Shown: positions 63,441 through 64,000 of the stretch, piece after piece
How positions within the stretch are numbered: position 1 is the first letter of the stretch
How the letters are laid out: every line of letters starts with the position of its first letter
NCBI RefSeq assembly: GCF_900103285.1
Contig: NZ_FNGS01000006.1
Coordinates: 248,001 to 312,000, forward strand
DNA: 64,000 nt
Reading direction: 5' to 3'
DNA from: Siphonobacter aquaeclarae
GTDB taxonomy: Bacteria > Bacteroidota > Bacteroidia > Cytophagales > Spirosomataceae
Position numbers and translations under genes: made by a program
Notes under the pieces: model-generated
The model's database searches: none
Seen by the model: only the letters and a program-made list of their open reading frames with translations
Told to the model about the DNA's origin: nothing

Positions 63441-63473
63441 GCTCTTCGAGATGTTCCGCAGGACATCTCGAAG
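63441..63473. repeat. 33-nt palindromic element, left copy
   Basis: GCTCTTCGAGATGTTCCGCA and 13 further bases ending CTCGAAG; CTTCGAGATGT pairs with ACATCTCGAAG. The right copy at 63585-63617 is its exact reverse complement. Confidence 0.85.
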
Positions 63474-63584: not shown

Positions 63585-63617
63585 CTTCGAGATGTCCTGC
63601 GGAACATCTCGAAGAGC
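63585..63617. repeat. 33-nt palindromic element, right copy (inverted)
   Basis: Exact reverse complement of 63441-63473 over all 33 bases. Confidence 0.85.
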
Positions 63618-63689: not shown

Positions 63690-63709
63690 ATTGTGGAGTA
63701 TTCTACAAA
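63690..63709. promoter_or_regulatory. Operator-like palindrome, site 1
   Basis: ATTGTGGAGTATTCTACAAA, matching 17 of 20 bases of the perfect palindrome at 63950-63969. It covers the -33 TTG (63691-63693) of the promoter of the small gene. Confidence 0.7.
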
Positions 63710-63720
63710 ACCTATATTTG
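63691..63720 (+). promoter_or_regulatory. Bacteroidota promoter for the small gene
   Basis: TTG at 63691-63693, a 19-base spacer and TATATTTG at 63713-63720, an exact TAnnTTTG. The ATG at 63725 lies only four bases past the -7 box, so the transcript would be leaderless or nearly so. Confidence 0.65.
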
Positions 63721-63724
63721 TGAT

Positions 63725-63934
63725 ATGAAGACGTTCGCCAGTATTGAAGAAGCCTTCCAATGGTGGCTGGAAAACATTTATCCGTCATTACCGCCCGATG
63801 TGAAAAAGGGCAAACCCGTTTCCGCCTGGCGGGATTACAAACACGGCGGCGGTGTCTCTGAAAAGCGTATGAAGGAGATCCTGACGGAATTCGGCCCGTT
63901 TGAAATTCAAACGATTATCACATACAAGACGTAA
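63725..63934 (+). CDS. Small helical protein, unknown function
   Basis: A 69-residue soluble protein without a signal peptide, beginning MKTFASIEEAFQWWLENIYP. It has an N-terminal helix, a basic middle (DVKKGKPVSAWRDYKHGGG), and a helix VSEKRMKEILTEFG that could belong to a helix-turn-helix. A strand-like end FEIQTIITYKT follows. I do not recognise a family. A promoter with an operator palindrome precedes it and the same palindrome precedes the next gene, so it may be an autoregulator or half of a two-gene unit. It could also be an immunity partner of the RHS tail, but nothing in the sequence shows this. Confidence 0.5.
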   Translation: MKTFASIEEAFQWWLENIYPSLPPDVKKGKPVSAWRDYKHGGGVSEKRMKEILTEFGPFEIQTIITYKT

Positions 63935-63949
63935 TTTTTTTATTTCAAT

Positions 63950-63969
63950 TTTGTAGAATATTCTACAAA
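63950..63969. promoter_or_regulatory. Operator-like perfect palindrome, site 2
   Basis: TTTGTAGAATATTCTACAAA is a perfect 20-bp palindrome. It directly abuts, and by one base overlaps, the ATG at 63969. A CAATTTTG box at 63946-63953 (one mismatch from TAnnTTTG) is embedded at its left edge. Confidence 0.75.
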
Positions 63970-64000
63970 TGAGTAACAGAGAAAAACCCGACAGGTACGT
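63969..64000 (+). CDS. Start of a gene cut by the window edge
   Basis: Only MSNREKPDRY is visible, beginning at the ATG at 63969, 34 bases after the small gene's stop. The upstream operator palindrome ends on its first base. The product cannot be identified, and this start is the likeliest but not certain. Confidence 0.35.
   Translation, partial: MSNREKPDRY

Follow-up and report, generated by a model that had tools for sequence, protein, structure and literature searches.

The window analysed here, 64,000 nucleotides of the Siphonobacter aquaeclarae genome, closes on a pair of similar palindromes, and the question raised by this locus is which genes the two sites serve and which protein reads them. 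A sequence-only reading had placed each site before a gene of its own and taken the whole for a compact, autoregulated unit directly after an RHS locus. Both palindromes are present as then described: TTTGTAGAATATTCTACAAA at 63950-63969 is a perfect 20-bp palindrome, and the stretch at 63690-63709 is a 17/20 copy of it. They are the only 2 matches in the window at up to 3 mismatches, and none of 100 shuffles contained any. The features of the region are as follows.

63690..63709, no strand: operator 1, ATTGTGGAGTATTCTACAAA, overlapping the gene A promoter at its -33 region
63691..63693, + strand: TTG of the -33 element, located by sequence inside operator 1
63713..63720, + strand: -7 box TATATTTG, an exact match to TAnnTTTG that stops 4 nt short of the ATG
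63725..63934, + strand: gene A (P0001), 69 codons, with a predicted three-helix core; likely autorepressor
63950..63969, no strand: operator 2, TTTGTAGAATATTCTACAAA, 15 nt past the gene A stop codon
63978..64000, + strand: start of a CCCG...CGGG hairpin element that extends to 64036, past the window end
63969..64049, + strand: the 'last gene' of the sequence-only reading, a 26-codon frame overlapping the hairpin element; judged not to be a gene

The two sites flank one gene rather than precede two, since the frame from the ATG at 63969 stops after 26 codons. That start codon does adjoin operator 2, as had been noticed, but the frame was rejected as a gene because of its early stop and its overlap with the conserved hairpin element. 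The promoter supposed to lie at operator 2 fares no better, a TAnnTT[TC]G box following operator 2 in 1/92 copies of gene A among the relatives described below. The next longer frame on the same strand encodes 81 aa and starts at window coordinate 64063, outside the window. Between the operators the strand of gene A carries nothing but the 69-codon gene, and between the RHS gene and operator 1 the window has short frames only (by the frame list). The RHS gene, which had been offered as relevant context, is incidental; relatives of gene A have other neighbours.

At the upstream end of the unit a palindromic site lies over the gene's own promoter. The TTG at 63691-63693 is inside operator 1 and 19 nt before the -7 box TATATTTG, and the end of this box 4 nt before the ATG predicts a leaderless start; the earlier proposals of a covered -33 element, an exact promoter match and a leaderless start thus agree with the sequence. 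According to the literature, the -33 consensus is TTTG and could not be identified in Flavobacterium johnsoniae (PMC7366714), and the -7 box occupies positions -12 to -5 (PMC9723704), which would put the transcription start on the A of the gene A ATG. The arrangement recurs in relatives, where a TAnnTT[TC]G box is found in the last 24 nt before the ATG in 80/92 copies (1.7 expected from shuffles). The box ends 1-5 nt before the ATG across the box-bearing copies, and in 30 of them the interval is only 1-3 nt, placing the predicted start just inside the gene. Operator 1 starts 22-27 nt before the start of the -7 box in 78 of the 80 box-bearing copies.

The product of gene A had been called an unrecognised small protein, and it matches no profile of Pfam, NCBIfam or PHROGs. 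Two relatives that were scanned as well gave weak matches (phrog_28306, E 0.012; Pfam, E 0.13 and 0.18, the Pfam matches being below the cut-off). The family is undescribed, in that it is absent from the family libraries searched (Pfam, NCBIfam, PHROGs). The AF2 model of A, built from a 95-row alignment, has a mean pLDDT of 92.9 and a pTM of 0.79, with helices at residues 7-17, 30-40 and 46-56 and no strand. By helix order only, the predicted fold is helix-turn-helix-like. In the structure prediction that had been proposed as a check, three helices in a suitable order are predicted, but no significant structural relative of the model was found in the PDB or among viral models, which counts against reading A as a DNA-binder.

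A scan of contigs for relatives of A gave 11 loci, 10 from Dyadobacter and 1 from Rhabdobacter. Within its bacterial family, a profile search found A in 39/222 genomes and 5/36 genera, the richest genome having 12 matches, 9 of them intact. At the level of the order it was found in 22/390 sampled genomes, including a distant clade (3 genomes, 19 copies) and one further weak match, and in a phylum-wide sample of 395 genomes it was confined to the window's own genome and one weak fragment. Viral contigs searched with the A profile gave no match, nor did plasmids and phages searched with the window's A protein. From 140 matches, 107 distinct full-length copies were analysed. One locus (L051, G134:C14) holds a natural fusion, with two different A proteins in one uninterrupted open frame.

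The operator of the window is private within its own genome. Within 3 mismatches, the whole genome has a single additional place (C15:227715, TTCGAAGAATATTCTAAAAA), which is without TGTAG half-sites, adjoins the end of an unrelated 422-aa ORF and is apparently degenerate. In the relatives the usual layout is one palindrome over the promoter and one past the stop codon. Classes of operator vary among copies (TGTAGA..TCTACA, TGTTGGA..TCCAACA, GTCGGA..TCCGAC, TGTGGA..TCCCAC, TTTACGGAG and others), and within a copy the pair matches. The best 20-bp match between the upstream and downstream stretches averages 16.35 within copies against 13.58 between copies (107 copies); none of 10,000 permutations reached the observed mean, the highest giving 14.18. 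At least 16 of 20 bases match in 74/107 own pairs, compared with 926/11,342 between-copy comparisons. Where the operators are asymmetric, both direct and inverted pairs occur, as judged by eye. Looping between the two sites finds no support in their spacing, which is without special helical phasing. The sequence TTTGTAGANTANTCTACAAA occurs at up to 2 mismatches in 90/222 genomes, mostly 1-3 times per genome and also in genera without A; at 0 or 1 mismatch, 6/8 places among the matches listed are at A genes. The palindrome pattern is not scattered, as it might have been had it no relation to these genes.

As for homologous loci, most carry matched palindromes of their own at the same two places, but the distant homologues (19 copies in 3 genomes) do not have the operator pair, which counts against an autorepressor. 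A further 14 copies without a clear pair show no convincing operator of their own class upstream and are mostly the first genes of tandem clusters. In six such clusters (L012, L069, L013, L009, L039 and L070) two or three A genes stand together and a clear operator pair is seen at the last only; in L012 the first A gene directly follows a gene that is HigA-like by eye.

The score by which operators were placed rewards similarity of the four half-sites to each other and a TTTGT start, and likeness inside a locus is therefore partly built in. The score is not discriminating, its cut-off being passed by 92/107 own pairs and by 121/150 mismatched upstream and downstream stretches, so that the claim of paired operators rests on the match between the upstream and downstream stretches, on the position over the promoter and on the tracking of the protein. 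The 92-copy set (15 dropped) was used for the residue columns, residue tables, clusters, flank test, box counts and block comparison. In a strict set of 72 copies the box and flank tests give the same picture (61/72 copies have a TAnnTT[TC]G box before the ATG), the residue tables being those of the 92-copy set.

The sequence of the site co-varies with the protein. Lysine at residue 36 of A accompanies C at base 6 of the half-site in 51/56 half-sites, against 26/276 for arginine. Counted by clusters, the figures are 8/9 for K and 4/42 for R at 90% identity and 4/5 and 3/23 at 80% identity (30 clusters); at 70% identity there are 9 clusters only, none of them K-led at this residue. Alanine or proline at residue 31 goes with 20-bp sites in 9/9 clusters, and leucine or tyrosine with 21-bp sites in 18/21 (80% identity). 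The single columns that best account for the operator are 35, 36, 39, 23, 42, 15 and 33, five of the seven being in predicted helix 2 or the following turn and two elsewhere. However, 13 preselected specificity residues explain the operators less well than the rest of A (partial correlation 0.195 vs 0.319), and 727 of 3000 random column sets were as good or better.

Loci that share a common upstream flank of at least 500 bp (same-locus pairs; 105 pairs, not independent and with at least one pair inside a single genome) separate the protein from its surroundings. Where A is less than 70% identical the operator distance is 2.06 (n=49, flank identity 77.4%), and where A is at least 85% identical it is 0.40 (n=39, flank identity 82.0%); pairs without a common flank but with A at least 85% identical give 0.55 (n=40). 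Over the 105 pairs the Spearman correlation with operator distance is -0.65 for A identity and -0.31 for flank identity, A and flank identity being themselves correlated at 0.41. The strict set (85 pairs) gives distances of 2.00 (n=38) and 0.38 (n=32) at low and high A identity, with correlations of -0.64 for A and -0.24 for the flank. With the flank in common, likeness of operators goes more closely with likeness of A than with that of the flank. Many A loci are common to several genomes with conserved flanks, and among 14 groups of common loci, 9 include clearly different recognition classes by the author's reading, or 11 if every label difference is counted.

Differences between such loci come as a block. 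A tandem duplication within one genome (L064) has copies whose upstream flanks are 94.5% identical over 511 bp and whose small downstream proteins (B, see below) are 94% identical, whereas identity between the A proteins is 54% and their operators fall into different classes. Outside the block identity is 85-97% (mostly 90-97%), and from near operator 1 to just past operator 2 it is about 60%. One copy of the upstream gene is both shortened and interrupted there. The same divergence of the block is seen between genomes when L007 is compared with L092 and L026. As the groups for this comparison were formed by operator distance, the operator identities in it are built in. In at least one case the operator-A-operator block appears to have been exchanged as a unit rather than to have diverged in place. 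Going further, the block may be a portable specificity cassette, a self-contained regulator whose class is swapped as a unit at fixed chromosomal loci. Selection against cross-reaction among the many copies of a genome, or else a conflict of the immunity kind, would drive the swapping, and it would make no difference to the downstream gene which class is present; we put this forward tentatively, as a little less than an even chance.

The reading best suited to these results is that A, a member of an undescribed family, binds DNA sequence-specifically and represses its own gene, through operators on both sides of it that are private to the locus and switch quickly in sequence; we hold this to be probable. 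A, probably as a dimer, would recognise the 20- or 21-bp palindromes that flank its own gene. Bound to operator 1, over the -33 element, it would obstruct the promoter, so that by negative autoregulation the leaderless A transcript stays at a low level. Operator 2 may be an auxiliary site, as a roadblock or a partner, for transcription into the hairpin and the small downstream gene. Each copy reading its own operator sequence, the several copies in a genome (up to 9 intact) would stay insulated from each other, and the operator-A-operator block would change as a unit. The earlier suggestion that a DNA-binding protein from either gene could repress both is retained for A, a likely DNA-binder, in respect of its own gene, but not for the second frame, which is judged not to be a gene; that of a compact, probably autoregulated unit, with a site over the -33 region and a predicted leaderless start, is supported. 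The finding is larger than then described, the putative autoregulators making up a family of small proteins with private operators on either side of the gene, which vary in concert with the protein.

The hairpin and the gene beyond it bear on the question of a second partner. A CCCGG...CCGGG hairpin lies between operator 2 and the downstream gene in 34/107 copies by a loose pattern. In an alignment of 33 elements, which includes that of the window and leaves out a doubtful one (L097), the stem has 5 bp and one pair is changed on both sides (GC to AU) in 3/33. The exact pattern has 10 matches in 7 genomes, each of them immediately past an A gene; these 10 do not include the element of the window, which has diverged. 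A small helical protein, B, follows A in 69/107 contexts. Among 99 sampled relatives, 3 genomes had B, at 6 places in all, and the 5 outside the window's genome are all directly after A; the sixth, in the window's own genome, is circular as evidence, and only 2 Dyadobacter genomes of the sample had B. The window's own downstream protein, P0002, scored -0.8 bits against a B profile built without it and was set aside as not detectably related to B. Among 36 members of the B-position alignment, no family was matched by more than 3 (best E 0.0067 in Pfam and 0.0053 in NCBIfam), and PADLOC, run on P0002 and one B, found nothing in either.

These genes invite the explanation that A and B form a module akin to toxin-antitoxin pairs, A being the autoregulating antitoxin. 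The frequency of B after A, and directly after it at the five sampled places, would fit, as would neighbours of the HigB, SocA/Panacea and PIN kinds at some loci, and antitoxins are described as acting on promoter inverted repeats to repress the operon that encodes them (PMC3874152). Like the autoregulating type II antitoxins, A has a palindrome in its promoter and often a second small gene downstream. However, B is without a toxin family match or any consistent one, is replaced by other genes at some loci and has no match in P0002, and at L064 the class of A changes while B stays 94% identical; the module is unlikely, though B may be a toxin of an undescribed kind. Ten neighbouring proteins were scanned in all, one member for each family, and the contexts overlap. 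A HigA-like gene lies within 3 kb in 18/107 contexts (16/19 members upstream), and HigB-like genes recur in 5 contexts, DUF6169-like in 10, SocA/Panacea in 7 and PIN in 8. The HigA-like member matched HTH_19 (E 0.018) and the DUF6169-like member its family (E 4.5e-5), both below the cut-off, and the HigB-like member matched HigB_toxin (E 7.4e-31). No toxin-antitoxin genes were recognised in the window. At two loci other proteins stand in B's place: an S24-peptidase-like one (L101:3309-3701, Pfam E 2.1e-5) and one of similar appearance with no Pfam match (L106:3344-3949).

Other parallels are PaaR (paaA-parE) and Omega (epsilon-zeta), which PMC3874152 describes as small, separate, DNA-binding strict repressors, Omega binding within its own promoter. 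A resembles them in having toxin-antitoxin genes near some copies, but in most contexts no such pair is beside it. It differs also in its second operator past its own stop codon, and in that they are ribbon-helix-helix proteins (PMC3874152) whereas A is predicted to be three-helical without a strand. The C proteins of restriction-modification systems are, in the same text, helix-turn-helix autoregulators with operator-specificity (incompatibility) groups, to which A may be likened; unlike them A has no Pfam helix-turn-helix match and has paired upstream and downstream operators, and the recurring neighbours (ten proteins scanned) included no recognisable restriction-modification genes. A would be a putative counterpart of the toxin-antitoxin and restriction-modification autorepressors of that text (PMC3874152), but one that meets no family profile.

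C proteins are reported there to be activators as well as repressors, and A might likewise activate its own promoter. Against this, operator 1 overlies the -33 element itself and reaches to within a few bases of the -7 box, and we regard activation as quite unlikely. Such a position is a usual one for a repressor site.

Alternatively, the palindromes could bound a mobile or exchangeable cassette in the manner of terminal repeats or recombination sites, with A helping to move it, and their overlap with the promoter would be secondary. As in mobile elements with terminal repeats, two matched palindromes bound a unit that is apparently exchanged, the block differing between closely alike flanks at L064 and between genomes at one locus. 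At three loci of the window's genus (L021, L022 and L024) the gene after A is integrase-like, a tyrosine recombinase by Pfam in L021 and, by eye, similar in the others. Nevertheless, one site is locked to the promoter, operator 1 standing at a narrow distance from the -7 box; asymmetric pairs are of mixed orientation (by eye), many loci are common to genomes with conserved flanks, the unit has no transposase or recombinase, the 69-codon gene being alone in it, and the inspected alignments (L064; L007 vs L092/L026) showed no evident target-site duplication. Such a cassette is very unlikely. It is barely credible that another DNA-binder, a neighbouring HigA-like antitoxin or a host regulator, reads the palindromes, as might be thought from the 18/107 contexts with a HigA-like gene and the 5 with a HigB-like one, for even at conserved upstream flanks the operator varies with A, the HigA-like gene is absent from most contexts and the window has short frames only between the RHS gene and operator 1.

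With A as an autorepressor of its own operators, the family would offer an unusually clean data set on change of DNA-binding specificity and on the insulation of copies within a genome, comprising seventy-odd natural pairs of a protein and its well-matched operator (the strict set has 72), with 40 combinations of the tabulated residues in a protein of about 70 residues. The rules that it suggests, lysine 36 with C at base 6 and alanine or proline at residue 31 with 20-bp sites, are directly testable.

Two further observations concern the surroundings of the window's locus. Just past the RHS gene lie two exact copies, oppositely oriented, of a REP-like 30-bp imperfect palindrome, CTTCGAGATGTTCCGCAGGACATCTCGAAG (63444-63473 and 63585-63614), and by eye there are pieces resembling it further downstream (L004, at about 7350 and 10060). 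Beyond the window, L004:12754-19718 encodes a 456-aa protein without a PHROG match, a single-strand DNA-binding protein (phrog_44, E 1.7e-20) and, judged by eye, several apparent membrane proteins, all in a row, and is possibly an integrated phage-like element.
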